Translations under genes and position numbers: made by a program
Notes under the pieces: generated by a model
Databases searched by the model: none
What the model was told of the DNA's origin: nothing
The model's input: only the letters and a program-made list of their open reading frames with translations
Shown: positions 30,179 to 55,824 of the stretch, piece by piece
Position numbering within the stretch: position 1 is the stretch's first letter
How the letters are laid out: every line of letters begins with the position of its first letter
DNA from: an uncultured Bacteroidales bacterium
Lineage (GTDB): Bacteria > Bacteroidota > Bacteroidia > Bacteroidales > FEN-979
Length of the DNA stretch: 64,000 nt
Direction: 5' to 3'
Assembly: GCA_903877385.1 (NCBI GenBank)
Contig: CAIRDP010000063.1
Span: 186,001-250,000, forward strand

Positions 30179-31357
30179 TCAACCCCTTTTGGCCCGTTCC
30201 CAGTTCACCGACTGGGTCTTCCTGATATACCTTGAAAATCCCAGGTATACTGCAAGATTTATAATAAAAAAGTAATAGGGTATATAAACAAGTTTGAAAT
30301 TGATCTTGCTTTCTTCTATGATCCATCCCAGCATGGCTAAAAGATAAAATGCAATCTGCCCCCAAAAAAGCCAGGTGTATACGCTGCCAAAATTAAACAG
30401 GCCCTCAACGGCTGCAACAATGCTTGTGCACACCAGCATCACAGGCAGCCCAAGAGGGGCAAGGGTCCATCTCAACACCCTGTGAGAGATGTATTGAAAT
30501 GAAAGAATGCCAAACCTGAAAGGGTTCAGCAGTTCCTTTAACCTGATTATCGATTGAACTCCTCCGGCTGTGATACGAATCTTCCTTTTAAGCTCTTCCC
30601 TTATGCTGGCCGAAGGGTTTTCAATGGCATAAGCATCAGGGTCATACTGAATTGTATACCCCTTCTCGGCTATCCTCAGTGAAATGATAAAATCATCCAG
30701 CAGGGTGTCAGGCTCCACCGGTTTGAACAATTCAGTCCTTAAGGCAAAAAGTTCCCCGGCCGCACCAACCACTGAATACAGTTCGGCATCCCATCTTTTA
30801 AGGGTGGATTCATATTTCCAGTAAATGCCTTCAGCCGCAGCAGCCGAATCCTGGTCGAATATCCTTTTTTCGCCCGAAACACAACCTACCCGGGGATTCC
30901 TGAACAGTTTAACGATCCTGCGGATTGATTCCCCGCCAAGCATGGTATTCCCGTCGGAAAAAATCACAATGGGTGTTTTAACAAATTCCATTCCCCGGTT
31001 CATCGCGTCAATTTTTCCGGCTCTTGCAGCCTGGTGATGTACCTCAACTTTGGGATATTTTTTAAGAAGATCGGGGGTTCCGTCATTCGAACCATCGGTA
31101 ATCCAAACGTGTTTTACTTTTTCCTTCGGGTAATCGAGTGAAAAAGAATTCCTGATCTTTTTATCAACAAATTCCTTTTCGTTATATGCTGCAACAAACA
31201 AGGTAACATCAGGCTCGAATATCCCGTCATCCTCGGGCTTTTTCTTTACAAATAAACGCTTGATGCATATCATGAAAAATATAAGGATTCCATAGCCCAG
31301 GTATGAATAGAAGATGACAGAGAGAAAAAACCAGATGATAATTTTCAGAGCAAGCAT
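30179..31357 (-). CDS. Membrane glycosyltransferase family 2 (copy A of a tandem pair)
   Basis: The 392-residue protein has an N-terminal transmembrane helix (5-30) and a GT2/BcsA-like catalytic domain (VTLFVAAYNEKEFV, WITDGSNDGTPD, IFSDGNTM as the metal-binding DxD-like motif, DTLLDDFIISLRI, then KRKIRITAGG in place of QxxRW). Three C-terminal helices (about 300-380) follow. It is an inverting transferase acting at the inner membrane, adding or polymerising a sugar of the exopolysaccharide. It has the same length as the upstream gene and roughly three quarters identical residues, so the two arose by tandem duplication. Confidence 0.9.
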   Translation of the reverse strand: MLALKIIIWFFLSVIFYSYLGYGILIFFMICIKRLFVKKKPEDDGIFEPDVTLFVAAYNEKEFVDKKIRNSFSLDYPKEKVKHVWITDGSNDGTPDLLKKYPKVEVHHQAARAGKIDAMNRGMEFVKTPIVIFSDGNTMLGGESIRRIVKLFRNPRVGCVSGEKRIFDQDSAAAAEGIYWKYESTLKRWDAELYSVVGAAGELFALRTELFKPVEPDTLLDDFIISLRIAEKGYTIQYDPDAYAIENPSASIREELKRKIRITAGGVQSIIRLKELLNPFRFGILSFQYISHRVLRWTLAPLGLPVMLVCTSIVAAVEGLFNFGSVYTWLFWGQIAFYLLAMLGWIIEESKINFKLVYIPYYFFIINLAVYLGFSRYIRKTQSVNWERAKRG

Positions 31358-31454
31358 AAATATCGGTTTCAGTTAAATTGAGTCTATGTTTCGCATCACT
31401 ATGTTTCCCGGTTTGTCACAAAAGCATTGTAATATAATGCTCAAGGGGATTTTA

Positions 31455-32633
31455 TCAGCCCCGTTTTGCCCTCTCCCAGTTTACAGATTGCTGTTTTTTC
31501 ATATACCTTGCAAACCCAAGATAAACAGCCAGGTTCATTATGAAAAAATAATAAGGAACAAACAGCAGCTTGAACTTGATTTTCCTCTCTTCGAGGTACC
31601 AACCTAATCCGGCAGAAAAATAGAATAGGACCTGCCCCCAGAAAAGCCAGGTATAAACACTGCTAAAATTAAAAACGCCTTCAATGCCTGTTACGATGCA
31701 TGAACAAACCAGCATGATAAGCAGCCCAAGAGGGGCAATGGTCCACCTCAGCACCCGGTGCGATATATATTGAAATGAAAGCATGCCATAGCGGAAGGGG
31801 TTTAGCAGTTCCTTTAACCGAACGATGGATTGAATGCCTCCCGCGCAGTTGCGTATCCTCCTTTTCAGCTCTTCTTTTACATTGGCCGAAGGATTTTCAA
31901 TTCCATATGCATCAGGATCATACTGTATGGTATAGCCCTGCTCCGCAATCCGCAGTGAAATAATAAAATCGTCAAGCAGGGTGTCGGGCTCAACAGGCCT
32001 GAACAATTCAGTCCTTAAGGCAAACAATTCTCCGGCGGCTCCAACCACCGAATAAAGTTCTGCATCCCACTTTTTAAGTGTGGATTCATACTTCCAGTAT
32101 ATCCCTTCGGTACCTGCAGCTGAGTCCTTGTTGAAAATTCTTTTCTCGCCCGAGACACAGCCCACTTTCGGGTCCCTGAATAAATTAACGATCCGCCTGA
32201 TGGATTCTTTCCCAAGCATTGTATTGCCGTCGGAAAAGATAGCAATGGGGGTTTTCACGAACTGCATTCCGCGGTTTATGGCTCCTATCTTTCCGGCTCT
32301 CTGCTGCTCATGGTAAACCTCAACTCCATCGTATTTTCTCAGGTGTTCCGGGGTACCGTCATCAGAACCATCGGTAATCCATACAAGCTTGACTTTCTCC
32401 TTCGGATACTCCAGGGAAAATGAATTCTTCACTTTCTCGTCAACGAAGTCTTTTTCATTATAGGCAGGTACAAATAAAGTGACTTCGGGTTCAAAGACAT
32501 CAACGGGAAGAGGTTTCTTCTTTACTATCAGCCGTTTTATCCGGATCAATACAAACAACAGGATTCCATACCCAAGGTAGGCATAAAAAACTATGAAAAG
32601 GAAAAACCAGATGATAATTTTCAGGATGAGCAT
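31455..32633 (-). CDS. Membrane glycosyltransferase family 2 (copy B of a tandem pair)
   Basis: This is the paralogue of the following gene, also 392 residues and with the same motif order: LFVPAYNEKDFV, WITDGSDDGTPE, IFSDGNTMLG, LLDDFIISLRI, RRIRNCAGG and C-terminal membrane helices. Differences cluster in the first helix, in residues 100-120 and at the C-terminus, which may alter acceptor choice. The 97-nt gap to copy A is long compared with other gaps in the cluster and may be the duplication junction. It starts 16 nt after the acyltransferase gene. Confidence 0.9.
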   Translation of the reverse strand: MLILKIIIWFFLFIVFYAYLGYGILLFVLIRIKRLIVKKKPLPVDVFEPEVTLFVPAYNEKDFVDEKVKNSFSLEYPKEKVKLVWITDGSDDGTPEHLRKYDGVEVYHEQQRAGKIGAINRGMQFVKTPIAIFSDGNTMLGKESIRRIVNLFRDPKVGCVSGEKRIFNKDSAAGTEGIYWKYESTLKKWDAELYSVVGAAGELFALRTELFRPVEPDTLLDDFIISLRIAEQGYTIQYDPDAYGIENPSANVKEELKRRIRNCAGGIQSIVRLKELLNPFRYGMLSFQYISHRVLRWTIAPLGLLIMLVCSCIVTGIEGVFNFSSVYTWLFWGQVLFYFSAGLGWYLEERKIKFKLLFVPYYFFIMNLAVYLGFARYMKKQQSVNWERAKRG

Positions 32634-32649
32634 AATCTAAAAATTTGTA

Positions 32650-33309
32650 TTAAATTTTTCTTTCCCATTGATTTGTACCCGGATTATAGGCCTTAAGTAT
32701 TTTCGCAGGGTTGCCCGCTACGACTGAAAAGGGTGGTACGTCTTTTGTGACTACGCTTCCGGCTGCGATTACAGAATGTTTCCCAACCGTAACCCCTGCA
32801 ACGATCACTACATTTGCCCCAATCCATACTTCGTCACCTATGGTGATCATCGAAGTGGACTGCTTCTGCAGACTGATTGGCTTGCTGATGTCCTCGTAAG
32901 AGTGGTTTAGCCCCGAAAGCACAATATTCTGGGCAAGCATGACATCATTCCCTATCGTAACCGGTCCGATCAATGTGCAGCTTATTCCAATCCTTGTATG
33001 TTCGCCTATGTAAAGGGGACCTGCTCCATTGTTAATCGTTGCAAAATCTTCAATTGTCGAGGCCTTCCCCAATACGAAATCATTCCAGGGGAACACATCC
33101 AGCCTGGTCCTCCTCCTGATGCAGGAATGCCGGCCGCGTTTGTGCCTGAACGGGTTCAGGAACAGTTTAACCCATAACCTCGGCCTGGCCTGGTTTTTGG
33201 GTGTCAGCAGATTGATGACAAACAATTTCAGCTTTGGATCTGCTTTGATTTTCCTGATCAGTGACCGTACTGCAGAAATGGGTTTGCCTGAATCAGATTC
33301 CTTCTTCAT
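32650..33309 (-). CDS. Left-handed beta-helix acyltransferase (WcaF/CatB-like), copy 1
   Basis: The 219-residue protein has hexapeptide repeats (about 85-205): IEDFATINNG, IGEHTRIGISC, IGPVTIGNDVML, TIGDEVWIGANVVIVAG, VTVGKHSVIAAGSVV. It ends with the family signature PPFSVVAGNPAKILK. Enzymes of this family O-acetylate sugars using acetyl-CoA, with a catalytic histidine in the LNHSYED segment. It is soluble and probably decorates the exopolysaccharide repeat unit. Its start overlaps the stop of the upstream glycosyltransferase gene by 4 nt. A second member lies at 40400-41041. Confidence 0.9.
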   Translation of the reverse strand: MKKESDSGKPISAVRSLIRKIKADPKLKLFVINLLTPKNQARPRLWVKLFLNPFRHKRGRHSCIRRRTRLDVFPWNDFVLGKASTIEDFATINNGAGPLYIGEHTRIGISCTLIGPVTIGNDVMLAQNIVLSGLNHSYEDISKPISLQKQSTSMITIGDEVWIGANVVIVAGVTVGKHSVIAAGSVVTKDVPPFSVVAGNPAKILKAYNPGTNQWERKI

Positions 33310-34499
33310 AGACCTGATGCTTTATATATTTCATTAGCATTTGCTTCCCATGTATGGCTTCTCGCGAAATTTTCACGGGCAATTTCCTTTTCTTTGGTAT
33401 TCTCTTTCAGCGCCAGCCCGACCAAGTCCAGGTATTCCTCTTTTGAATTGGCCAGGTATACAAAGTCTTTAAATACGCTCATGGCTTCGGTAAGAGTTGC
33501 TACCGTTGGTTTGCCCATGGCAAGGTATTCATCGATCTTGCGGGGGTAATTTCCTATGGTGACTTCATTTAATATCTGCGGATTAACGGCAACATCGAAG
33601 CTGGCGAGGTAGGAGGGCAGGGTGGAAGGAGGCTTGCTTCCAAGGAAATATACATTTGGAAGAAAATGAAGCTCCGAATTTTTAAAGGCATCATCTTCGG
33701 GGCCAATGAGCACCACACTCCAATCCGGCCTTTGCCTGGCAATGAATAACAGGACTTCGATGTCGAGCCTCAGTTTATAAAGAACGCCTATGTACCCGAT
33801 TATGGGTTTCCTGATATCGTGGATCTCAGCAGGAGGAGGATTTTTGATCAGCTTTGAATCAAATGCAGTTACATCGCAGCCCTGTCCCACATAATATGAA
33901 TCATGGTTGAATTTTTTACAATATTTTGCAAGGAAAACCGAATTCGCCACAGCAAGGTCCGCTTTTTTTATCAGTGCCGCTTCAATCCTCACACCCTGTT
34001 TTTTCCACCAGTCAACGGCAATCATATTATCCCTGGAGTAGTATATGAATTTTACGGGTTGCAGCAGATCCTTCAGGTAAAAACTCCTGAACATATCACT
34101 GTCGCAGAAAATAATAACATTGCTGAAGCCAAGGGTATGAACTGCCTTTCCGATCTCTGAAGCCAATCGGCGGCCGTTGATCTTATTCAGGAAATCAAAA
34201 ACCAGCTTACTCCCGATCTGGCTGATGGATTCGAGTGTGGTTTTCGGATAAAGGGTCCACAGGTTTTCCCTGACCTTAACCAGGGAATCTTCCTTCCCTC
34301 TGATGACATTGATTCTCTTCCTGATGCCGGGGTCCTTACGGTGGCGAAGGACCGTTAAGCGGTCGGCGGGATAATTGACGTAAAGCACCCTGTGTTTCCT
34401 TGCAAATTCATAGGCCAGGTTTACAGCATTGGAGCCGGCAGCATAATCAATTGCCTGCAGGCTGGTAATTACAAAATCAAATTTCACGCCTTCTTCCAT
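33306..34499 (-). CDS. Glycosyltransferase (GT1/GT4-like), trio member 1
   Basis: The 397-residue, two-domain GT-B enzyme has RVLYVNYPADRLTV in the N-terminal domain and a C-terminal nucleotide-sugar domain (KPIIGYIGVLYKLRLD, WSVVLIGPEDDAF, NVYFLGSKPP, LPSYLASFDVAVNPQ, KIDEYLAMGKPTVAT). The usual ExxxE-like acidic motif is the DEYLAMG segment. The donor is unknown. It is closely similar to the next upstream gene and more distantly to the one at 41085-42305, forming a family of three in the cluster. Confidence 0.88.
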   Translation of the reverse strand: MEEGVKFDFVITSLQAIDYAAGSNAVNLAYEFARKHRVLYVNYPADRLTVLRHRKDPGIRKRINVIRGKEDSLVKVRENLWTLYPKTTLESISQIGSKLVFDFLNKINGRRLASEIGKAVHTLGFSNVIIFCDSDMFRSFYLKDLLQPVKFIYYSRDNMIAVDWWKKQGVRIEAALIKKADLAVANSVFLAKYCKKFNHDSYYVGQGCDVTAFDSKLIKNPPPAEIHDIRKPIIGYIGVLYKLRLDIEVLLFIARQRPDWSVVLIGPEDDAFKNSELHFLPNVYFLGSKPPSTLPSYLASFDVAVNPQILNEVTIGNYPRKIDEYLAMGKPTVATLTEAMSVFKDFVYLANSKEEYLDLVGLALKENTKEKEIARENFARSHTWEANANEIYKASGL

Positions 34500-34510
34500 C
34501 TTAGCAGAGT

Positions 34511-35710
34511 TTATTTCAGAAGCCCGATCTGATCATATATCTTTTCTACAAAGTTTGCCCAGGAATGGCTCTGGCCAACCCGGATCCTTCCGGCATGCTT
34601 TGAAGGACTGTCTTCCGACAAGGCTTTCCCGATTTCGGTAATATATTCCTCCTCGGTCAGGGCCAGGTATGAGTCCTTTGAAAAATAGAACTCCATGAAC
34701 CAGGTCCTGGTAGCAACCACGGGTACTCCCATTGCCAGATATTCATCCAGTTTCAGGGGGTAATTGATATTGGTAATTTCATTCAGCAACTGGGGGTTAA
34801 TGGCAACATCAAAGCCCTTGACATAACCTGGTAATTCAGTCCCGGGTTTGCCCCCGAGAAAATAAACATTCTTCAGCTGGTGCAGTTTGCTGTCTTTAAA
34901 GGCCTGGTCTTCGGGCCCGACCAGCACGAAGTTCCAGTCGGGACGCTGTTCGGCGAGATGGATCAACAGCTCAAGGTTCAAACGGATGGTTGTAAGAGCC
35001 CCTGTATAACCTATACGGGGATGAGGAATTTTCTCAAGTTCATCAGGTATTCTATGGGTTCCGTCCTTATCACAATACAGGTTGATATCAACTCCCTGCC
35101 CGATAAACGTTGAATTGGGGTTGAATTTCAGGCAATAATCAGTGAATGCCGGCGAATTGGTAACAACGATATCAGATTTTTTAACCAGGAGCGGTTCCAT
35201 CCTGCTCCCATGCTTTGCATGATAAGCAACTTTTGTAACATGATCTCTCAGGAAATAAATCTGGATCGCAGGTTTCAGAAGTTCCTTAAAATAAAATCCC
35301 TGGAGCATCGAATTATCGTTCAGGATGATATAATCGTGAAATTTAAGGGTCTCAATGGCCGCTTTTGCCTTACGGGCATACCTCCTGTCGTTAATCCAGT
35401 TAAACCAGTCATGTATTCCCGGACTGGAGATCCAGTTTATGGATTCCATAACAGTTTCAGGAAACAGTACCCAGAGGTTTTCATTAATTTGCTGCAGGGC
35501 TGGTTCCTGCCCGCTGGTAACCCTTTTGTATTTTTTCGTCTCAGGCGCTTCAGGCCTGAAAAGCTTGTAATTCCGTTGAAGGGGAGTGTCAAGAAACAAT
35601 ACCCTGTGCGTTTTGCTTAGTTCCATGGTGATGTATTTTGCGACCGTAGTCCCGAAGAATGCATCCCATGGCTGCATACTGTGAACAATGATATCTCTTT
35701 GCTTTATCAT
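34511..35710 (-). CDS. Glycosyltransferase (GT1/GT4-like), trio member 2
   Basis: The 399-residue GT-B enzyme is parallel to its downstream neighbour in length and motif order: HRVLFLDTPLQRN, PRIGYTGALTTIRLNLELL, WNFVLVGPEDQAF, NVYFLGGKPGTELPGY, KLDEYLAMGVPVVAT. It is cytoplasmic or peripheral to the membrane. The pair probably came from duplication followed by divergence in acceptor binding. The gap to the downstream gene is 11 nt and to the upstream GT4 gene 10 nt, so all are in one transcript. Confidence 0.88.
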   Translation of the reverse strand: MIKQRDIIVHSMQPWDAFFGTTVAKYITMELSKTHRVLFLDTPLQRNYKLFRPEAPETKKYKRVTSGQEPALQQINENLWVLFPETVMESINWISSPGIHDWFNWINDRRYARKAKAAIETLKFHDYIILNDNSMLQGFYFKELLKPAIQIYFLRDHVTKVAYHAKHGSRMEPLLVKKSDIVVTNSPAFTDYCLKFNPNSTFIGQGVDINLYCDKDGTHRIPDELEKIPHPRIGYTGALTTIRLNLELLIHLAEQRPDWNFVLVGPEDQAFKDSKLHQLKNVYFLGGKPGTELPGYVKGFDVAINPQLLNEITNINYPLKLDEYLAMGVPVVATRTWFMEFYFSKDSYLALTEEEYITEIGKALSEDSPSKHAGRIRVGQSHSWANFVEKIYDQIGLLK

Positions 35711-36869: not shown

Positions 36870-38057
36870 TTAAAAATGTGATTGATAACTATGCTCTGTG
36901 TGGATGAATTTTTTGTTGGCCTTTTTTAGTCTGAATAATACAGATACCATAAGGAAGAAGGCTTTAGGCAAAGAAAACAGGGCTTTTACAGTTTCACGGG
37001 TATAAAAATGGCCCGGGATTGAAACCAGTATAGCAATTGAACATAAAACAAATGCGATCAGCCAGAGAATTGAAAACAGGTTGGGCGGAAAAAAGAGGTG
37101 TATAAGGTTCACGCTCAGCAGGGTCCCTAAAAGCATTGCTCTTGGAACCAGAGAAAATTGCAGGGTTTTATTAAACAGGTCATAATTCCCATGAAGGAAA
37201 ACTCCTGTAAAACTTGATATTAGTCCTTTGCCGAAATAATACAGCTGGGCCGAAATCCATCTCCGTCTTTGTTTGTAAAATGCCTGAGAGTTTTCAACTT
37301 TTTCATCATAAACATACGTATCGCTTAGATAATCGATAGTCACAGAAGAACTCAGAAGGGCAAGTTCAAGTTCCTTATCAAAGCCCCCGACGGCCGTCAG
37401 GCCGGGAATAAACTGCCGGTAAATGCCAGATTCAAATGCAATAGCCGAGCCTATCAATGCAGCGGATAATCCCATGGCACGGTGTCCTTCACGGAAGATA
37501 TTATTATTGACTTCCTCGCTGATGGCATCAAGGATTGCAAATGAACTGTTTGTATTCTTAGCTGCCCTGTGGCATTGAAAAACCTTGTACCCCGAATCAA
37601 ATGCACGGTTTAGCTTCCTAAGGCAGTTAATCTCCATAATATTGTCTGCATCAAGTATTACAACGAAATCAGTATCCGCAGAAATATGGTTCAGTGCCAG
37701 CTGCAGTGAATGTACCTTGGTGCTTTCATCTAACTCAGCAATCACCATCCTGATAGGGTATCTTGACAATGACTGTACAGTGGAGGGAGAGAATGAATCG
37801 GCAATTAAAATAATATCAATTTTGTCGGTAGGATAATCCTGCTGAAGCGCCGACTTTACAATGGCTTCAATTATCGAATCTTCTTTGTAGGCCGTGATCA
37901 GCAGGGTAATATGCCTGAACTTCGTAAAAGGCAGGCTGGGTTTCCTTATCCTGAGAACGCCGGCAATGGCAAAAACAAGGATATAAATAACGTTTCCGGC
38001 AAGAAAGACAAATAAAATGATCTCAACGAATTTTAAAATACCGCTTATCCACTGCAT
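36870..38057 (-). CDS. Membrane glycosyltransferase family 2, pair member 1
   Basis: The 395-residue protein has an N-terminal transmembrane helix (about 8-32) and a GT2 domain with LLITAYKEDSIIEA, IDIILIADSF, VVILDADN (DxD), FDKELELALL and QRRRW (the QxxRW motif of processive synthases). C-terminal helices (about 300-375) follow. It resembles hyaluronan/cellulose synthase-type enzymes. It is paired with a 401-residue paralogue encoded immediately upstream (5-nt gap). Either or both could make a sugar chain at the inner membrane. Confidence 0.88.
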   Translation of the reverse strand: MQWISGILKFVEIILFVFLAGNVIYILVFAIAGVLRIRKPSLPFTKFRHITLLITAYKEDSIIEAIVKSALQQDYPTDKIDIILIADSFSPSTVQSLSRYPIRMVIAELDESTKVHSLQLALNHISADTDFVVILDADNIMEINCLRKLNRAFDSGYKVFQCHRAAKNTNSSFAILDAISEEVNNNIFREGHRAMGLSAALIGSAIAFESGIYRQFIPGLTAVGGFDKELELALLSSSVTIDYLSDTYVYDEKVENSQAFYKQRRRWISAQLYYFGKGLISSFTGVFLHGNYDLFNKTLQFSLVPRAMLLGTLLSVNLIHLFFPPNLFSILWLIAFVLCSIAILVSIPGHFYTRETVKALFSLPKAFFLMVSVLFRLKKANKKFIHTEHSYQSHF

Positions 38058-38062
38058 GCCTG

Positions 38063-39268
38063 CTAATTTTTGTTTTGAGCATTCCCTTCGATTACACCAT
38101 GTGTTGTATGTCCCCAGCTTTTATTTGCCTTGTAAATTCTTATTAACGAAAAAAACATGAAAATGAAGCCCTTTGGCAGCAGAAAAACAGCCTTCAGTGT
38201 ACTGAAGGTGTAATACCTTCGTGGTGTTGAAATAACCAGGGTGATTATGCAGAGGATTGTGAGTGAAATCCAGGCCTGGGTATAAATGAGAGGATTCAGA
38301 AATATCGAAATACAAGATGCTATGACCAAAAAGCCCAGAAGGAAGATCCTGGGAGGGAAAAACTGCTGAATGACCTTGTCGAGCAGGTCGATATTTCCTT
38401 TTAAAATAAATTGTTTCAAGCTCCAGAAAAAATAGCGTTTTGCATATTTGAGCTGGTTGGCAAGCCAACGGGTCCTCTGGACCATGAAAACCTGTGACTT
38501 TTGTACCTTTTCATCAAAAATCAAGGCATCATTGAGGTATTCTATCTTTTTACCGTCGTTGATCAATTTAATCTCAAGTTCTTTATCCTCGGCAGTTGAA
38601 TCAATATTTGCCATATATTGTTTGAACATCTGGTAACGGAATGCCATTCCCGAGCCGATCAGGGCTGATGACAGTCCCATCACCCTGTGCCCCTTACGAA
38701 AAATATGGTTATTGATTTCTTCACTCACCGAGTCGAGGACAGCAAAATCCGTATTCCGGTTTTTTGCTGTTCGGTGACCCTGCACGGCTTCATAACCGCG
38801 GTTAATGGCTGAATTCATTTTTTGCAGGCAGTCGTTCGCCATCAGGTTATCGGCATCCAGGATCATTACAGCATCATAAACGTCGGGCAGCAGCGACATC
38901 GCTTTATTAAGAGCCTTGGATTTGGAACTCTTTTCAAAAACAACTTCTATAACTTTAACCGGCAATTGCTTTAAGCGGTCGATGGTTTCTTTCTGAAACG
39001 AATCCGCAATGATGGCAACATCGTAAAGTTCTTTGGGATAATCCTGTTGCAGCGCATGAGCGGCAACATCCACGATGACCATATCTTCCTTGTAACCGGG
39101 GATTAAAACAATAAACCTGTTCAGTCTATTTACAACAGGATCAGGGGGGCGATACCTGAACAAACCTGCAAAAGAGAAGATTAAAAAATAAAGGGTTGAA
39201 AAAGCGAGGTATGCAAAGACCAGGATTTGCAAAATAAAAGCAATGGAAAGCAGTATTTTAATAGCCAT
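38063..39268 (-). CDS. Membrane glycosyltransferase family 2, pair member 2
   Basis: The 401-residue protein starts at ATG 39268 (MAIKILLSIAFILQ). A longer in-frame start at 39304 lies inside the -7 promoter box and is rejected. The layout matches the downstream paralogue: N-terminal helix, FIVLIPGYKEDMVIV, VAIIADSF, VMILDADN, EDKELEIKLI, VQRTRW and C-terminal helices. It is the first gene after a full promoter, so it heads the second half of the exopolysaccharide cluster. The substrate is unknown. Confidence 0.9.
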   Translation of the reverse strand: MAIKILLSIAFILQILVFAYLAFSTLYFLIFSFAGLFRYRPPDPVVNRLNRFIVLIPGYKEDMVIVDVAAHALQQDYPKELYDVAIIADSFQKETIDRLKQLPVKVIEVVFEKSSKSKALNKAMSLLPDVYDAVMILDADNLMANDCLQKMNSAINRGYEAVQGHRTAKNRNTDFAVLDSVSEEINNHIFRKGHRVMGLSSALIGSGMAFRYQMFKQYMANIDSTAEDKELEIKLINDGKKIEYLNDALIFDEKVQKSQVFMVQRTRWLANQLKYAKRYFFWSLKQFILKGNIDLLDKVIQQFFPPRIFLLGFLVIASCISIFLNPLIYTQAWISLTILCIITLVISTPRRYYTFSTLKAVFLLPKGFIFMFFSLIRIYKANKSWGHTTHGVIEGNAQNKN

Positions 39269-39301
39269 ACCGGAGCAGTGTCTTGTTAAAAAGTATAGCT
39301 G

Positions 39302-39333
39302 CAAATATAGCCTAAAGATGCTGCAAATCCAAA
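39302..39333 (-). promoter_or_regulatory. Bacteroidetes-type promoter inside the polysaccharide cluster
   Basis: On the minus strand TTTG (39333-39330), 20 nt, TATATTTG (39309-39302) is a full consensus match. The GT2 start lies 33 nt beyond the -7 box. It gives the downstream half of the cluster (to about 25 kb) its own start of transcription. Confidence 0.75.
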
Positions 39334-45727: not shown

Positions 45728-46651
45728 TTATAGAAATGGGTTGTCGTGAATAAGTGGGTTGACGACATTTCTGAGATGCCAGCCTATTGCCCTGACGTAG
45801 GCATAGAAATATGTAAACTTGCCTTTGGCAAGATACTTAAGTGCGTTTTTTGGAATGGCGACTGCAAGCTGATAAAGAATGCCTAGATAAAAATCCTTAC
45901 CCTCAACGTTACGGCGCATGAATACGATCCTGTTCCTGTTCTGGTAATAGACCTTCGAGGCGCTCAATTTGCCAACAGATATTGATTCCTTGTGGTACAC
46001 GAGGGAGTTGTGGATATACCATATAGTGTATCCGGCATTTTTAATCCTGTAGCTCCAGTCAGCTTCTTCGTAATAGAGGAAAAAAACATATGACATGATC
46101 CCTATTTCCCTGATCACTTTCATCGAAACCATCATAGCAGCCCCGTGTGCATAAGGAGTTTCTTTGTCGTTATCGTGCTGCCCCTTGTCTTTCTCACGGT
46201 ACCCGATTGCAAAACTGCGCATTGTACGGTGATCGATTGGCGTATAACCTGCAAATTGTATCACCGAACGGTCATAATAAAACCTCAATTTTGCGCTCAC
46301 GCAGCCTATACGCTGATCACTCTGCATTTTGGCAACCAGTGGTTCAAGGAAGCCTTTATCGACAATGGTGTCATTGTTCAATAGTAAGACATAGTCGCCT
46401 CTTGCCCGCATGATCCCCAGGTTGTTCCCCCCGGCAAATCCCATATTGACATTGCTTTCGTAAAGGACGATACTGGGGAATCTTTCTTTAATGATCCTTG
46501 GATTATCATTTTCGGAATGATTATCAACCACGATGATCTCTATATTCGCATAAGTGATCCTGGTAAGAGAATCAATCATCTCTATAGTATCTTCCGAACC
46601 ATTAAAATTAACGGTGACTATCGACACAAGAGGGCTGGCGACAGGGCTCAT
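45728..46651 (-). CDS. Glycosyltransferase family 2 (rhamnosyltransferase-like), pair member 2
   Basis: The 307-residue enzyme has VSIVTVNFNGSEDTIEMI, IEIIVVDNHSEND, VNMGFAGGNNLGIMRARG and LLLNNDTIVD (DxD-type metal site), then YYEEADWSYRIKNAGY. This is the pattern of WbbL/RfbN-type GT2 enzymes that often transfer rhamnose. The C-terminal region holds hydrophobic segments that could lie at the membrane. Its ATG abuts the stop of the upstream paralogue. Confidence 0.9.
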   Translation of the reverse strand: MSPVASPLVSIVTVNFNGSEDTIEMIDSLTRITYANIEIIVVDNHSENDNPRIIKERFPSIVLYESNVNMGFAGGNNLGIMRARGDYVLLLNNDTIVDKGFLEPLVAKMQSDQRIGCVSAKLRFYYDRSVIQFAGYTPIDHRTMRSFAIGYREKDKGQHDNDKETPYAHGAAMMVSMKVIREIGIMSYVFFLYYEEADWSYRIKNAGYTIWYIHNSLVYHKESISVGKLSASKVYYQNRNRIVFMRRNVEGKDFYLGILYQLAVAIPKNALKYLAKGKFTYFYAYVRAIGWHLRNVVNPLIHDNPFL

Positions 46652-47575
46652 TTAATCCAGGCTGATATTTTTATGGACTTCAGGATTAAAGGCATTTGTA
46701 AAATGCCAGCCAATGGCATTTTTATAAGCAATGAAAAGTTTGAACTGCCCTTTGAAAAGATAGGTAAGCATATTCTTTGGGACGGCGATAAACAACTGGT
46801 AGAATATTGCCAGGAAGAAATTCAATCCATGTACATTCCGTCTCAGGAATAAGATACGATTCCTGTTGACGAAGTAGGTTTTATACGGGCTCATTGCGCC
46901 TGTTGTGATGGAATCTTTGTGGAAAATAAGTGAATTGTGAACGTAAGCTATATTATAACCTGCAACTTTGATCCTGTGGATCCAGTCTATCTCCTCATAG
47001 TAAAGGAAAAAGATCTCGGCCATCAATCCGACTTTTTTAATGACCTCAATCGGCATCAGCATTGCAGTACCGCAGGCATACTCCGTGTAACTGTCCTTAT
47101 CATGCTGTCCAAGGTCTTTTTCTCCGAAGCCTATGCCTTTATTTCTTACTGTTATAGGATGGATGGCGGTATATCCGGCATATTGGATTATATCGGGATA
47201 GTAAAAATACCTGATTTTAGGGCTTACAACCCCCAGGGTAGGGTCATTCTGAAGTTTTGCCACCAATGGTTCAAGGAAGCCCGGGTCTACCGTAGTATCG
47301 TTATTTATGAGCAGCCAGTATTTTCCCTTGGCAGCTCTCATTGCAGCATTGCATCCCCCTGCAAATCCAAGGTTTACCTTGTTTTGTATAAAGACGATAT
47401 CGGGATGTTTTTCTACAATGATGTCAGGCTTTTTTACCTCGGAAGCATTATCATACACAATGATTTCGTATGAGGGGTAGGTGATTTTTTTTACAGAGTC
47501 CAGGAAATCAAGGGTAACCTCAGGCTGGTTATATGTCCCTGTAATTATCGATACTAATGGAAATTCTTCTGCCAT
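46652..47575 (-). CDS. Glycosyltransferase family 2 (rhamnosyltransferase-like), pair member 1
   Basis: The 307-residue enzyme starts at ATG 47575; an in-frame TTG two codons earlier was rejected because the ATG gives the same length as the paralogue. Motifs repeat those of the downstream gene: VSIITGTYNQPEVTLDFL, YEIIVYDNAS, VNLGFAGGCNAAMRAAKG, LLINNDTTVDPGFLEP, YYEEIDWIHRIKVAGY. The two genes are a tandem duplication, likely with different acceptors in the repeat unit. Confidence 0.9.
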   Translation of the reverse strand: MAEEFPLVSIITGTYNQPEVTLDFLDSVKKITYPSYEIIVYDNASEVKKPDIIVEKHPDIVFIQNKVNLGFAGGCNAAMRAAKGKYWLLINNDTTVDPGFLEPLVAKLQNDPTLGVVSPKIRYFYYPDIIQYAGYTAIHPITVRNKGIGFGEKDLGQHDKDSYTEYACGTAMLMPIEVIKKVGLMAEIFFLYYEEIDWIHRIKVAGYNIAYVHNSLIFHKDSITTGAMSPYKTYFVNRNRILFLRRNVHGLNFFLAIFYQLFIAVPKNMLTYLFKGQFKLFIAYKNAIGWHFTNAFNPEVHKNISLD

Positions 47576-47586
47576 AGCCAATAAAA

Positions 47587-50654: not shown

Positions 50655-53345
50655 TCAGGAAATGACACTGTTTTCACGAAACCTGAATGTCAGAATCCTT
50701 TTAACCGTTTTGCGAAACTTTGATCTTTGTTTCGGGATTTCACCGAAAACAGAATCCAGGAACATAAGTTCAACTCCGTTGAGAACAATTTTTGTAGGTT
50801 GTTTTGTAACGGAAAGGAATCCATTCAGGGCATCCTTGTCTGCATCCGTCCAGGAGCGATTGGCCCGAACAACAAGGAGGGCAAGATCAAATTTCTGTAT
50901 CAGATCGATCGGATAGGCATTATTGATAAGGGATGGAACTTCAATAAAGATATAATCATAGGACTCCAGATCAAGATGCTCATATCCTTTTAAAAGCTCA
51001 CTGGTGTCTTTTACTTCGAAGAAATTATCCTGGATGATATACTGGATTTCATCCTCAGCCGGCGGGATCAGTTCAACATTCTCGAATCCTTCAGAAGGAC
51101 CCGGATTTTCCTTAATGTAATTCAGGAAAAGAACATTCTCTCCGAATGCCTTGAACTTCCGGCTCAGTTCACGACCTATCGTAGTTTTACCTTCTGAGTC
51201 CCGGGTACTGAAGAGCAGGATAATAACCGTCTTCTTAACATTATTATTTTGGGATTTATGCAGGCTGATCTTGATGTTCTGTGCCATGATCTCAACCAGT
51301 CTTGGTAAGATAAACCCGATATCTACATTGTAGATTTGTTTGATGATCTTCGGGTAGAGACCTGCAAGTTTAAGTTTGATGAACCGTTCAGCCCTTTCAC
51401 CAGTTTTAATCGTGGAGTCTAAGAACTCCATGGCCAGCAGTATGATTACAATAAATATAAAGCCGATGAGCGCTGCTGCAAGAACAAGCAGCATGGCCTT
51501 GGACCGTAATGCGTGCAAGGGGTAGAAGGGGGCGTCGACGACTTTAAGGTTGGTCGACAATTCATCGTCCTGCTGCCTGAGTTTAGCAAGGTTAAGGTCA
51601 TGCAAGAGTTCCAGGAACTCGCTCTCGGTGACCCCGATCAGCCTTTCAAACCTCTTTTGCTGGGCTCCGAGGGGAGCGAAAATTTCGTAAACTTTCTGGA
51701 AATACCGTTTACGTTCCGACAATACCCTGAGCGCGGCTTTGCTTTCTTCATACGTTACCACGTTGTTAAGCCAGGCATTCAGAAGGTCTTTCAGCGGCAA
51801 ACCTTCTACGGAGTTTGTGACCAGGTATAGCTGGTCGATGTTGTCTTTTAATTCCAGTTTCGTTGCTTCAACCTTATTCTTAAGAGCTGTAAGCTGTTTT
51901 ATTGTCGCAGAATCATTGCCAAGGTCAATCTCAATATTGGCGATCTGCATTGTTGTATTTGTCAATTCGTTACGCAGCCTTAAAATGGAGCTTGTATTTA
52001 ATGAAAGCTTGGCGTGCGTTTCAAGCTTCTTTTCGATAAGCTTTATGGCGGCATCAGAGGCAGCAAGTGCAATCTGTTTGTTTTGATAATCTTTGTCAAG
52101 CTCTTCTTTGGTGATCGCTATTTCCTTCGTTTGTTCATAGAAGTTTATAATGTTGTTCCTTGAATTGAACATCAACAGATCGGATTCGGCTCTCTGAAGT
52201 CTTCTCATGGCATCTTCAAGCTGACGCTTGAAATAGGCGATCACTGCGTCGGTCTGGTTTTGTTTCAGTAATTTGAAAGACCTGATAAAACTCTTTGTCA
52301 GGAAAACAAGCGTTTGCTGGGCAATCCCGGGATCGGTGGTTTTGTATGTGATCTTCAGCAGGTCGCTGCTCTGGATTCTTGTAATTTCTGCTGCCGATAA
52401 AGCATTCAGGCTGTAAAATGGATCGGATTGGGAATTCCACAGCTGGTAGATGAAATTATAATCATTCTGATGGCCGTAATTGATCAGTTGCTTGACCAGC
52501 CTGTCAAATGCTGTTGTATCTGTAATGTTGCGGTGTAATGTGATGGCCGTTGTGGAAGTGTCGAACTGGGAATAAAATTCTGATGGCAGTGAAGTTGTAT
52601 CTGCATTGCTTTCCTGGCCTCCTCTTCCGACCGGTGCCGGCTCAATTTTACCTGATTCAGTAGGATAGGATGCGGGTTCGGGCATCTGGCCCGGGATATC
52701 AAGCTTCAGCCTCTGACCGGTTGAAATTTCACTGGTCCTCAGCCTGTTATCGCTCATCAGTTTTCTCACACTCACTCCACTGCTACGCGCAATGGAAAAC
52801 ATGGTTTCCCCTGGTTTTACAACATGGTATGATTCCTTGCTCTGGGGAGGTTCATACGCTGTTTTTTCTGAGGTATTTACAACATCAGGAGAGGAAAAAG
52901 AAGTGTCGGCCTTAGAAGTCTTATTTGAGGGGGCTTTAAAGAATTTCGGATTTGAACGTTTGGCTTTCCTCACGATATCCATCACATCGGGAGGTACTTT
53001 TGAAATAAGTTCTTCAAAATGTTCTTTGGAAATATATCGTTCATCAAAATGATCCAGCAAAAGATGCTGTGCAAGGAGGGATGCTGAAACTTCTTCGAGG
53101 GTCTGCCGTGACTTGATAAGGTTAATAAGGTTGTCGTAAACCGTATTTTTTACAATAACATCGGTGTAAGCCTGCTGCTGCACCGAGTAACCTGAAGTCA
53201 CACCTGTGTATATTGTCGTTTCCGATGAATAACTCCATTGGTCCTTACGCGTCAGGAAAAAAACCACAGCTGCAAGCAGCAGAGGAACAAGTATCAGTAA
53301 CAATACATGCCTTGAAAGGATCTTGACAAAGTAGATAATTTTCAT
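50655..53345 (-). CDS. Wzc-like chain-length/kinase protein with internal LysM domain
   Basis: The 896-residue protein has an N-terminal helix (15-31), a Wzz-type periplasmic region with long coiled coils (about 360-600), a second helix (about 640-665) and a cytoplasmic P-loop domain. Unusually, residues 173-217 form a LysM domain (YHVVKPGETMFSIARSSG ... STGQRLKLDIPG), between Ser/Pro-rich linkers. The P-loop reads FSTRDSEGKTTIGREL, keeping GKTT, but the Walker A' aspartate segment is FIEVPSL and the C-terminus has no tyrosine cluster. It likely controls chain length and export; tyrosine kinase activity is doubtful. It starts where the TolC-like gene stops (1-nt overlap). Confidence 0.92.
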   Translation of the reverse strand: MKIIYFVKILSRHVLLLILVPLLLAAVVFFLTRKDQWSYSSETTIYTGVTSGYSVQQQAYTDVIVKNTVYDNLINLIKSRQTLEEVSASLLAQHLLLDHFDERYISKEHFEELISKVPPDVMDIVRKAKRSNPKFFKAPSNKTSKADTSFSSPDVVNTSEKTAYEPPQSKESYHVVKPGETMFSIARSSGVSVRKLMSDNRLRTSEISTGQRLKLDIPGQMPEPASYPTESGKIEPAPVGRGGQESNADTTSLPSEFYSQFDTSTTAITLHRNITDTTAFDRLVKQLINYGHQNDYNFIYQLWNSQSDPFYSLNALSAAEITRIQSSDLLKITYKTTDPGIAQQTLVFLTKSFIRSFKLLKQNQTDAVIAYFKRQLEDAMRRLQRAESDLLMFNSRNNIINFYEQTKEIAITKEELDKDYQNKQIALAASDAAIKLIEKKLETHAKLSLNTSSILRLRNELTNTTMQIANIEIDLGNDSATIKQLTALKNKVEATKLELKDNIDQLYLVTNSVEGLPLKDLLNAWLNNVVTYEESKAALRVLSERKRYFQKVYEIFAPLGAQQKRFERLIGVTESEFLELLHDLNLAKLRQQDDELSTNLKVVDAPFYPLHALRSKAMLLVLAAALIGFIFIVIILLAMEFLDSTIKTGERAERFIKLKLAGLYPKIIKQIYNVDIGFILPRLVEIMAQNIKISLHKSQNNNVKKTVIILLFSTRDSEGKTTIGRELSRKFKAFGENVLFLNYIKENPGPSEGFENVELIPPAEDEIQYIIQDNFFEVKDTSELLKGYEHLDLESYDYIFIEVPSLINNAYPIDLIQKFDLALLVVRANRSWTDADKDALNGFLSVTKQPTKIVLNGVELMFLDSVFGEIPKQRSKFRKTVKRILTFRFRENSVIS

Positions 53346-54103
53346 TATTCTATTTTGTTTATAACGTTGAATTTAAAGCCACACAACTCCTGTAATATCA
53401 TATACGAATTAAAAAATGCATTTCTGGAGGTTTCATAATTATAAACTGCCACCCTGTACATTTCCATAATATAAGCCAGGTCGTAAAGAGTGGACTGCCC
53501 GTTTAGAAACTCCTTGTCGCCCATCTCTTTATTCATCGAGCCGGCAATAACGCTTTCATTTGCATTTTTAAGAATTTTCTGGTTGACAATTAACTGGTTG
53601 TAGTTGGTAATTATCGTTTGTCGCAGCAAGAGAATAATATTATCTTTTGATGCCATTGATTTTTCAATTTCTTTAGTGGCAATTTTCATCTGGTTCTTGC
53701 GGTCCCATAGATCCAGCATAGGGAGTTTGATTTCAAGCGATCCCAATCCCCTGATATTGTTCTGGAGTGAATAAATACTGCTTGACGCTCCCAGGTTGTC
53801 AGAGTTCTGGGTAGTTGCATTCCAGAAGCTGGATTCAAGATACGTATCAAGATAAAAATTTCTCATCCAGATCCTGTTTGCCGATTTAACCCTGTATCTC
53901 CATGCCTGGATATCGGCTGTCCACATTTTCACTTCGGGACTATGAACTATGGCCGAGTCAATCAGGTCTTCAAGGGGAGGAATACGCTGGATGATGTCGT
54001 CGATAAGAGGATTGAAATATGTTGTGTCTTTTGCCTGGCTAAATCCCAGGAGCGGCATAACGAATAATGCCGTCATGAAAAAGTGCTTCAACACTTTTTT
54101 CAT
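53345..54103 (-). CDS. Half-length TolC-like outer-membrane protein
   Basis: From ATG 54103 (MKKVLKHFFMTALFVMPLLG) the product is 252 residues with a signal peptide ending GFSQ. An in-frame ATG at 54133 would put ten charged residues ahead of it. The mature part has LEDLIDSAIVHSPEVK, GLGSLEIKLPMLD and long helices (about 150-240), matching one repeat of the TolC/OEP family, where usual members have two (about 420-480 residues). It may form the outer-membrane exit for the polymer in place of Wza, which is absent. It lies between the sugar transferase and Wzc-like genes. Confidence 0.83.
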   Translation of the reverse strand: MKKVLKHFFMTALFVMPLLGFSQAKDTTYFNPLIDDIIQRIPPLEDLIDSAIVHSPEVKMWTADIQAWRYRVKSANRIWMRNFYLDTYLESSFWNATTQNSDNLGASSSIYSLQNNIRGLGSLEIKLPMLDLWDRKNQMKIATKEIEKSMASKDNIILLLRQTIITNYNQLIVNQKILKNANESVIAGSMNKEMGDKEFLNGQSTLYDLAYIMEMYRVAVYNYETSRNAFFNSYMILQELCGFKFNVINKIE

Positions 54104-54133
54104 ATAAGACCGTTCAAAATTCAGAATTCCCAT

Positions 54134-55357
54134 TTACATATTCTCCTTTTGAAATACAGCACCGAAAGTCCTGAATATAATGACAATATCTCCCCAGAAT
54201 GAGTTATTCTCGGCATAATAGTTATCCAGCGCAAATCTTTCTTCTTCAGACATAGGTCCGCTTCTGCCTCGTTTTTCAACCTGCCACAGCCCTGTAAGGC
54301 CGGCAGCTGCCCTGAACCTGCGGCTCCATTTCTTTTTTGTCAGTGCTTCAGCCTCATTCAGGGGGAGGGGGCGATTCCCTACGATCGACATATCGCCTTT
54401 AAGCACGTTGATCAGCTGCGGCAGTTCGTCTATACTGCTCATTCGGATCACTTTGCCGACTTTCGTTATCCTTGGGTCGTCTTTAATCTTTATAAATGCT
54501 TTTCGTGTGCTTCTGTGTTTGTTTGCTATTCTTTCACAAACCTGCTCTCCGTCATAATATACGAGAGGTGAACAATACTGCCCTTCGGGTAGTTTCGCAC
54601 ATTCGGAACATTCGGCTTCGACCGTTTCGCTGATATACTGGTTCAGGTGTTCAACTTCTTTCAGCCTCTTGTCCGCATCCGGATACATGGAGCGGAATTT
54701 ATAAAAATCAAAGATCTTGTAATTGGCTCCGACCCGTTTTGAAAAATAGTACACTTTACCTCTTGATTCAAGGCCGATCGCAACCATGGTCAGTATCATC
54801 AGAGGGGAAAGGATTAAAAGTGCGGTCCCTGCCATCAGTATGTCAAAAGTTCTCTTCAGCAGGGGAGTTGTATATGCATTAAAACCTACATTGGGATCAA
54901 CAACTATCGTTTTATTCTCAAATTCCGACTTGAATTTCTTAAGCAACAGTATCCTGCTGTAAATATTCCCTGTTTGAATGCCACGATGATAAAAATCATC
55001 AACTCCAAGGGTATAGGCATTCTTTTTTGCACTATAATCCTTGAACGATGAAATTACGATAAATGGTGTTTTCTGGTACAGTTTATTCAATTTTAGCCGC
55101 CTGAAAAATGAAAATGCATTGATCCCGGGAAGCAGGTACTCGCAGATGATCGCGTCTATTGATTGCCTCTCTTCATACTTAATATCAAATCTCGTGTCTT
55201 TATCGAGGTCGAAAATTTTAAATTGATTATCGGTAAGCCAGTATATTGCAGAAAGAGGGTTTCCCTTGACCGTCACGTTAAAATACTCTGAATTCATGAA
55301 CAAATCAACTATCGGTTGATTGTTGCCGATGTACAGGATATTTAAACTCGAACTCAC
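54134..55357 (-). CDS. Initiating sugar transferase fused to a pseudo-receiver domain
   Basis: The 407-residue protein begins at GTG 55357. Residues 5-145 look like a response-regulator receiver (LNILYIGNN, IICEYLLPGINAFSFF, FIVISSF, GVDDFYHRG), but Glu73 replaces the phospho-accepting aspartate. Residues 165-407 are a WbaP/WcaJ-type polyprenyl-phosphate sugar transferase, with one membrane helix (171-195), FDFYKFRSM, DELPQLINVLKGDMS and GLTGLWQV. A Cys-rich insert (C250, C253, C262, C274) interrupts the catalytic domain. It would load the first sugar-1-phosphate onto undecaprenyl phosphate. It lies 13 nt after a free response regulator gene. Confidence 0.92.
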   Translation of the reverse strand: MSSSLNILYIGNNQPIVDLFMNSEYFNVTVKGNPLSAIYWLTDNQFKIFDLDKDTRFDIKYEERQSIDAIICEYLLPGINAFSFFRRLKLNKLYQKTPFIVISSFKDYSAKKNAYTLGVDDFYHRGIQTGNIYSRILLLKKFKSEFENKTIVVDPNVGFNAYTTPLLKRTFDILMAGTALLILSPLMILTMVAIGLESRGKVYYFSKRVGANYKIFDFYKFRSMYPDADKRLKEVEHLNQYISETVEAECSECAKLPEGQYCSPLVYYDGEQVCERIANKHRSTRKAFIKIKDDPRITKVGKVIRMSSIDELPQLINVLKGDMSIVGNRPLPLNEAEALTKKKWSRRFRAAAGLTGLWQVEKRGRSGPMSEEERFALDNYYAENNSFWGDIVIIFRTFGAVFQKENM

Positions 55358-55370
55358 TTTCTATTTCGGG

Positions 55371-55772
55371 TTATTGGCTGCTTATATTACCTGAAAAGGC
55401 GATGGACCTGTCAATCCGTCGTTTCACCCTTACAATAAGCTCTCTTGGATTAAACGGTTTAACTACGTAATCATCAGCCCCCATTTCAAAACATTTAATC
55501 TTATCAGCGCTTTCTTCTTTTCCCGACAACATGATCAGGGGTATCTCATCAAAAAAACCACTTTCTCTGATTCGTTTGATAAACTCAAACCCGTTCATCA
55601 CAGGCATTTCCACGTCGCAGATAATAACATCAGGAAGGTTGCCCGATTGTATGTAGTACAAAGCATCCATCCCATTGCTAAGGGTTGTAACCTCAAACTC
55701 CTTGTTGAAAGTATTTTCAATGATAAACCGGATACTCTTTTCATCGTCTATTGCGAGAATCTTCCTTTTCAT
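55371..55772 (-). CDS. Single-domain response regulator
   Basis: The 133-residue receiver has an acidic pocket (ILAIDDEKS), phospho-accepting Asp in VIICDVEMPVMNG, Thr/Ser in LIMLSGKEE and Lys in VVKPFNPREL. No output domain follows. It is the first gene after a full promoter and heads the exopolysaccharide cluster. Such proteins relay phosphate or bind partners; likely partners here are the two hybrid kinases at the far end of the cluster or the adjacent pseudo-receiver. Confidence 0.93.
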   Translation of the reverse strand: MKRKILAIDDEKSIRFIIENTFNKEFEVTTLSNGMDALYYIQSGNLPDVIICDVEMPVMNGFEFIKRIRESGFFDEIPLIMLSGKEESADKIKCFEMGADDYVVKPFNPRELIVRVKRRIDRSIAFSGNISSQ

Positions 55773-55791: not shown

Positions 55792-55824
55792 CAAATATAT
55801 TCGAATTTACTCCAAACCTCCAAA
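55792..55824 (-). promoter_or_regulatory. Bacteroidetes-type promoter of the exopolysaccharide cluster
   Basis: On the minus strand TTTG (55824-55821), 21 nt, TATATTTG (55799-55792) fits the consensus fully. The response-regulator ATG is 20 nt beyond the -7 box. Confidence 0.72.

Follow-up and report, generated by a model that had tools for sequence, protein, structure and literature searches.

A dead receiver fused to an initiating PGT and its adjacent single-domain response regulator: a candidate phosphorylation-gated switch of exopolysaccharide synthesis in Bacteroidota

Described systems and the locus

In Myxococcus xanthus, the phosphorylated single-domain response regulator EpsW is reported to stimulate the initiating phosphoglycosyl transferase (PGT) EpsZ (PMC12802240, mBio 2025). 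Proximity labelling suggests that the two proteins are in direct contact, and the proposed mechanism, a stabilized dimerization, was modelled in other myxobacteria and proposed to reach beyond them (PMC12802240). The Discussion of the same article credits O'Toole et al. 2021 with the observation of receiver domains in small monoPGTs. Because of these two precedents, neither a receiver fusion nor the control of a PGT by a response regulator is new by itself, and the Myxococcus system is the only direct control of an initiating enzyme by a response regulator that our literature search retrieved.

We analyzed a stretch of 64,000 nucleotides from an uncultured Bacteroidales bacterium (hereafter, the window), which encodes a small monotopic PGT fused to a pseudo-receiver. 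The gene lies 13 nt after that of a single-domain response regulator (SD-RR) on the same strand (Table 1). As with EpsW and EpsZ, a stand-alone receiver whose phospho-Asp is intact accompanies the monotopic PGT that initiates a Wzx/Wzy-type exopolysaccharide pathway (PMC12802240). EpsZ, however, belongs to the large monoPGTs, with a membrane bundle of four helices and a cytoplasmic DUF, whereas the PGT of the window is a small one, carries a fused dead receiver and is encoded next to its regulator. Since the membrane bundle of EpsZ is absent, the pair of the window may by analogy work like EpsW-EpsZ without belonging to the same family. In architecture it resembles the receivers joined to small monoPGTs that are credited to O'Toole et al. 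2021. In a literature search conducted largely on papers available without subscription, we found no description of the two-gene form in Bacteroidota, in which a live receiver accompanies a dead receiver-PGT with a kept interface.

The catalytic domain contains a re-entrant helix (residues 166-197) with L-S-P, the dyad D310-E311 and the sequence GLTGLWQ, and its model finds PglC as top Foldseek match (E 1.9e-5). We assign to D310-E311 and L-S-P the roles that these motifs have in monotopic PGTs. The profile, the Asp-Glu dyad, the re-entrant helix with Ser-Pro and the PglC fold identify the protein as a monotopic PGT (Bac_transf). This fold and these motifs are shared with the PglC-type small monoPGTs (8e37, 8g1n) and with WbaP (8t53), in contrast to which the PGT of the window presents an N-terminal receiver, no transmembrane bundle, and a lid about 40 residues longer with four cysteines. 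The predicted structure of its N-terminus has no four-helix membrane bundle and cytoplasmic DUF of the kind that defines large monoPGTs (WbaP/EpsZ type).

The two genes head an exopolysaccharide cluster, with uvrB upstream of the SD-RR gene on the same strand. After the PGT come an OEP-family protein, a Wzz-like protein with a LysM domain and a Polysacc_synt flippase (Pfam), and further along glycosyltransferase and sugar-nucleotide genes named by eye. Short OEP forms similar to that of the window also follow the PGT in the relatives L020, L051, L061, L067 and L083, and a Wzz-like protein with LysM was also seen at L012. It is possible that this LysM domain tethers the export machinery to peptidoglycan. 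We also observed by eye that several glycosyltransferase-like genes of the cluster occur as adjoining look-alike pairs (30179-32633, 33306-35710, 36870-39304 and 45728-47581, minus strand).

A promoter-like site precedes the SD-RR start, suggesting that the SD-RR gene is probably the first of the operon. The pattern TTTG-N21-TATATTTG, which we take to be a Bacteroidota-type promoter consensus, has five matches in the window against 1.0 expected, and 4 of 60 loci, counting the window, have the full pattern at this place. The shorter TAnnTTTG was found in 23 of the 60 upstream pieces, compared with 3 of 60 taken from within the regulator gene, an imperfect control since the latter are coding DNA.

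Table 1. Features of the PGT gene, its regulator gene and their surroundings in the window
Feature	Position	Strand	Basis or remark
Promoter-like site TTTG-N21-TATATTTG, Bacteroidota-type	55792..55824	-	19 nt before SD-RR start
Single-domain response regulator (SD-RR), 133 aa, first gene of the pair	55371..55772	-	PF00072 E 9.1e-29
Pseudo-receiver + small monotopic PGT fusion, 407 aa, GTG start	54134..55357	-	real ORF
Pseudo-receiver domain, residues 3-147, predicted (beta-alpha)5 fold	54917..55351	-	model and alignments
D121 codon, beta-5 Asp	54995..54997	-	PhoB 101 / KdpE Asp97 position
R135 codon, alpha-5 Arg	54953..54955	-	PhoB 115 / KdpE Arg111 position
PGT domain, residues 166-405	54143..54862	-	PF02397 Bac_transf residues 168-403, E 7.2e-58
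Expanded active-site (mobile) loop, residues 236-287	54497..54652	-	alignment to WbaP 8t53
Cys4 site C250-x2-C253-x8-C262-x11-C274	54536..54610	-	sequence positions
Short OEP-family protein, 262 aa, single matched stretch	53345-54133	-	directly after PGT
Wzz-like protein, 896 aa, LysM at residues 174-215	50655-53345	-	PF01476 E 5e-11

The pseudo-receiver and the neighboring regulator

The original prediction read the N-terminus of the PGT as a degenerate receiver and named a CoA-binding-like domain as the finding that would count against this. AlphaFold2 predicted a complete (beta-alpha)5 receiver over residues 5-145 (block pLDDT mostly 72-93), with the elements beta5-10, alpha14-21, beta26-31, alpha34-41 and beta69-73 in the first half and alpha81-93, beta99-103, alpha108-116, beta121-124 and alpha129-145 in the second. 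Weaker blocks were limited to residues 41-60 (pLDDT 67 and 47) and 141-150 (66). Residues 59-135 match PF00072 Response_reg (E 3.3e-6; 27.7 bits, which falls short of the cut-off of 30.2 bits), and the closest receiver of known structure is 3t6k (E 5e-6). Among the 50 Foldseek matches listed from the PDB, 49 are titled receivers or response-regulator proteins (best E 1.2e-6), the exception being 3kcn, titled adenylate cyclase; VIA-align superposed the domain on ArcA with a Z of 17.3 and an rmsd of 2.0 over 118 residues. A CoA-binding-like N-terminus was ruled out, since the listed PDB fold matches other than 3kcn are receivers by title. So was a WbaP-type transmembrane bundle: residues 3-147 are modelled as a receiver and the first long helix is that of residues 166-197. 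Between alpha-2 and beta-3, some 20 residues are inserted (residues 42-67, poorly modelled); the window's close relatives share this insertion, and nearly all distant ones have a gap instead.

The phosphorylation pocket of this domain has decayed. Residues 66-137 pair with PhoB 46-117 in phmmer at a constant offset of 20, so that Glu73, at the end of beta-3, corresponds to PhoB position 53. The Mg-binding acidic pair is replaced by G11/N12, the phospho-Asp by E73 and the Lys by R125, leaving only the Ser (S103); residues 1-147 thus lack the acidic pair, phospho-Asp and Lys that, with the Thr/Ser, characterize a phosphorylatable receiver. Degeneracy of the receiver was therefore borne out.

The same prediction had proposed that Glu73 mimics phosphorylation, which would lock the fused receiver in an active and signal-independent state. 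Glu does occupy this site in the window and in the 14 relatives that stand nearest to it in the alignment, as well as in the distant L067 and L068. Of the 55 N-terminal domains of our main set (defined below), however, 27 have Glu at the site, 10 have Asp and 18 have another residue; of ten proteins fetched later, five have Glu, three have Asp and two have another residue. Glu at the phospho-site is therefore not generally required, and as a general rule the conserved phosphomimic was rejected. The loss of the acidic pair and of the Lys also speaks against the mimic: 45 of the 55 domains have Gly at the first acidic position, and only 12 have Lys in the Lys column. This makes locking by Glu73 a very improbable explanation, and the residues of the pocket indicate that the pseudo-receiver of the window is a dead receiver and not a conserved phosphomimic.

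In divergent relatives, the corresponding domains are less readily recognized. Pfam returned a receiver match at E <= 0.03 in six of ten divergent relatives scanned and none in the other four (L060, L070, L076 and L088). The family's own receiver profile does find a receiver in L070, and Pfam matched nothing in 46 residues taken from the N-terminus of the L070 protein. The pseudo-receiver may have descended from the neighboring SD-RR, which is its best receiver match within its own genome (E 1.3e-5), with the next match barely behind (1.3e-4).

The original prediction also placed a real response regulator just upstream, and this is what we found: the SD-RR is a canonical receiver with an intact pocket (D9, D10, D53, S83 and K105), in which PF00072 was the only domain detected, with no output domain. 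By these residues, 55371-55772 would encode a phosphorylatable single-domain response regulator. Its best NCBIfam match is PhoB (TIGR02154, E 1.3e-29, receiver part only and under the cut-off). It resembles the receivers of the OmpR/PhoB family but, unlike that family, has no DNA-binding domain; the pseudo-receiver departs from the same family by its lost pocket.

We searched for the same arrangement in other Bacteroidota, as had been suggested. The main set comprises 69 proteins, the window's and 68 relatives after removal of duplicates; L011 and L035, whose contigs start inside the gene, and L030, a distant Ruminococcaceae hit, were left out. The upstream gene was evaluable for 67 of these proteins, the others being L029 (a frameshift, with a receiver further upstream) and L045 (at a contig edge). 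Ten hits at first without a locus were fetched later and counted apart, and weaker hits were left out. Across the phylum, 33 of 296 sampled genomes, including that of the window, gave a match at E <= 1e-40.

A receiver gene was found upstream on the same strand within 200 nt for 61 of the 67 evaluable proteins, and for all 55 of those with the N-terminal domain. The 55 partners are 50 single receivers, four tandem receiver-receiver proteins and one hybrid kinase ending in a receiver (L051). In the four tandem regulators (L053, L055, L057 and L059), both halves look intact by eye, except for the missing S/T in L055. The pocket is strongly conserved in the 61 upstream receivers, with D/E9 in 61, D10 in 61, D53 in 60, S/T83 in 59 and K105 in 61, as scored over the last 140 residues only for tandem and hybrid proteins. 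D53 is absent only from L028, and S/T83 from L028 and L055. The L028 receiver (4735-5001) is a miniature of 89 aa with Glu at the phospho-site, and it precedes a PGT without N-terminal domain.

In all ten later-fetched proteins, the catalytic part is preceded by a domain that is 140-187 residues long. A receiver gene lies within 200 nt in eight of them and at 243 nt in L127, and none was found in the 1.66 kb upstream of L123. Overall, a receiver gene stands just upstream of 64 of the 65 domain-bearing proteins, where 65 denotes N-terminal domains of equivalent position and comparable length and not 65 proven receivers, since Pfam often misses divergent relatives. At L123, an SD-RR gene follows instead and is itself followed by a second PGT copy (L047) on the same contig, in a PGT / SD-RR / PGT tandem; L123 may be a decaying copy because the D-P-R motif of its catalytic domain appears lost by eye.

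Other PGTs presented no such neighbor: an upstream receiver was found at 0 of 32 loci, namely 30 top-scoring PF02397 hits of the phylum, nearly all of large-PGT length and not a random sample, and the two other PGTs of the window's genome. Most of these loci offered about 440-670 nt before the open frame, which is sufficient for an adjacent gene. Receiver matches in the window's genome number 102, and just 10 lie in open frames no longer than 152 aa; from this, chance adjacency should be well under 1% (our estimate, made without a gene count). The gene after the PGT varies among the 12 loci scanned: it is OEP in L020, L051, L061, L067 and L083, GT2 in L019, L060, L070, L087 and L088, and GT4 in L069 and L082. 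The constant neighbor of the receiver gene is therefore the PGT. On a tree of the catalytic domains (built without L018, L029 and L045), the upstream receiver needs two changes by a quick method with several unresolved forks, which suggests long retention rather than many gains and an adjacency that is mostly inherited.

The four-cysteine lid

The transferase domain was also predicted to carry an insert with four cysteines. C250, C253, C262 and C274 are all present and are conserved as a unit; the fifth cysteine of the protein, C72, lies outside this site. The alignment to WbaP 8t53 stops at residue 235 and resumes at 286-288, leaving 50-52 residues against 11-13 in WbaP, and the PglC match resumes at PglC residue 78, equivalent to residue 291. 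The insert thus takes the place of the PglC mobile loop (residues 61-81), which is reported to close over the active site on ligand binding (PMC12550135). The loop was modelled with low confidence (block pLDDT 35-58 in one model and 51-64 in another).

Among the 68 scorable loops of the main set (L018 has none), 40 contain four cysteines, two contain five and 26 contain none, and the Cys4 site requires seven changes on the tree of catalytic domains. In the later-fetched proteins, it is present in five (L122, L123, L125, L126 and L127), absent in four and cut off in L124. One protein without Cys4, L128, has two stray cysteines in a short loop, and in L125 the segment appears by eye to be duplicated in tandem, with nine cysteines in a 128-residue loop. 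We considered that Cys4 could be part of the receiver switch and rejected it: L071 and L079-L081 possess the site with neither a pseudo-receiver nor a regulator, and Cys4 is therefore a separate feature.

We read the loop, on its residues, as a candidate metal-binding stiffener, probably for zinc, that would order the active-site lid independently of the receiver switch. A redox switch through disulfides or an iron-sulfur site instead of structural zinc is an unlikely alternative, although one that draws on the position of the four cysteines in a loop corresponding to that which closes over the nucleotide-sugar site in PglC (PMC12550135). Against it stand the joint gain or loss of the cysteines (four or five in 42 loops, none in 26) and the apparent duplication of the unit in L125, as for a metal-binding module. 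Stable disulfides are moreover unlikely in a cytoplasmic loop, and to our knowledge the spacing C-x2-C-x8-C-x11-C fits no common iron-sulfur motif. We found no description of zinc or cysteine sites in PGTs of Bacteroidota in the literature, as searched largely among papers open without subscription.

Receiver pairing as a proposed control of the PGT

Although the pocket of the pseudo-receiver has been lost, two positions associated with receiver dimers have been kept. When the clade of Parabacteroides, L027 and L060 is set aside, no column of the domain is as conserved as D121 and R135 (44 of 46 each), a choice of positions made after viewing the alignment. Of all 55 domains, 45 retain D/E121 together with R/K135, eight have lost both and two have lost one; the eight that lost both yet kept the regulator are seven Parabacteroides and L060. 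Parabacteroides goldsteinii and P. gordonii (L020 and L024) are members of this clade that possess the two-gene pair. An independent look at the ten later-fetched proteins found D/E121 and R/K135 in all ten. The two residues are spaced by 14, as are Asp97 and Arg111 of KdpE, whose salt bridge links the two molecules of the alpha4-beta5-alpha5 dimer (PMC4773095). Dimers of the OmpR/PhoB subfamily are described as sharing this face as their interface, and a limited number of hetero-pairs have been reported (PMC2586830). In the SD-RR family, D101 is present in 54 and R115 in 38 of the 61 receivers, and the SD-RR of the window carries D101/E111/R115. Judged from these residues, a dead receiver that lost its phosphorylation pocket and kept its interface positions fits retention for binding; D121 and R135 could also be retained for folding or for homodimers.

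Based on the conserved adjacency, the intact pocket of the SD-RR as against the lost pocket of the fused domain, the kept D121/R135 and the EpsW-EpsZ precedent, we consider it rather probable that the SD-RR, once phosphorylated, docks on the dead receiver and so exerts post-translational control over the PGT, the enzyme of the first committed step in exopolysaccharide production. A kinase encoded away from the pair would phosphorylate the SD-RR, which would then pair with the dead receiver, probably through the alpha4-beta5-alpha5 face. This pairing would alter the oligomeric state of the PGT or the access to its active site, and the enzyme would start (more likely) or stop loading sugar-1-phosphate onto undecaprenyl phosphate. 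We infer the physical contact, its dependence on phosphorylation and the direction of control. The non-transcriptional control by receiver pairing that was originally proposed thus stays likely on the evidence of adjacency, pockets, interface positions and precedent (PMC12802240). The later-fetched proteins, with nine agreements and one exception (L123), left our assessment of docking unchanged.

Alternatively, the pseudo-receiver might be a constitutive dimerization or scaffold domain that stands in for the cytoplasmic domain of WbaP, with the SD-RR acting elsewhere, on the Wzz/kinase-like protein or a distant regulator, and the two genes merely co-transcribed. Large monoPGTs are reported to be dimers (PMC12802240), and conservation of D121 and R135 would fit homodimers of the pseudo-receiver equally. 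This explanation would also accommodate PGTs that lack the N-terminal domain: six of the 12 in the main set have a receiver upstream (L019, L028, L069, L072, L074 and L075), which indicates that the domain is not needed for pairing everywhere, and the other six have neither (L071 and L077-L081). We regard it as rather unlikely, because the receiver and the PGT remain paired while the gene after the PGT changes and because none of the 32 other PGT loci has an upstream receiver.

The kinase genes near some of the pairs bear on another alternative, in which the SD-RR serves a kinase as phosphorelay intermediate or phosphate sink and is no direct effector of the PGT. SD-RRs can act as relay shuttles, and a HATPase-REC-Hpt gene lies just before the SD-RR gene in L069, L072 and L075. 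Since the PGTs of these three loci have no pseudo-receiver, a regulator acting on them would have to touch the catalytic domain itself. A HATPase-REC gene precedes the SD-RR gene in L052, and in L051 a HisKA-HATPase-REC protein takes the place of the regulator directly before the PGT. Such kinase-type neighbors are, from their domains, what a phosphorelay would need. Nevertheless, the constant partner of the SD-RR is the PGT, and among the upstream genes scanned, kinase genes were found at these five loci and four others (L019, L060, L065 and L066) are not kinases; no kinase gene adjoins the pair of the window, which is flanked by UvrB upstream and OEP after the PGT. We therefore hold the relay or sink role to be improbable, and docking of the SD-RR on the dead receiver remains our preferred reading.

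How bacteria ration undecaprenyl phosphate between the cell wall and surface polysaccharides is an open question. More tentatively, and with somewhat less than even confidence, we propose that across Bacteroidota phosphorelays directly gate the initiating PGT by a handshake between a live and a dead receiver, with the Cys4 lid as a possible second input, metal or redox; this would constitute a phosphorylation-gated counterpart to the c-di-GMP control of synthase-dependent exopolysaccharides. The pseudo-receiver is also a clear-cut example of a receiver that apparently persists only for binding. If docking is true, many Bacteroidota, including five named Parabacteroides species, would use the EpsW-EpsZ principle in a compact two-gene form.
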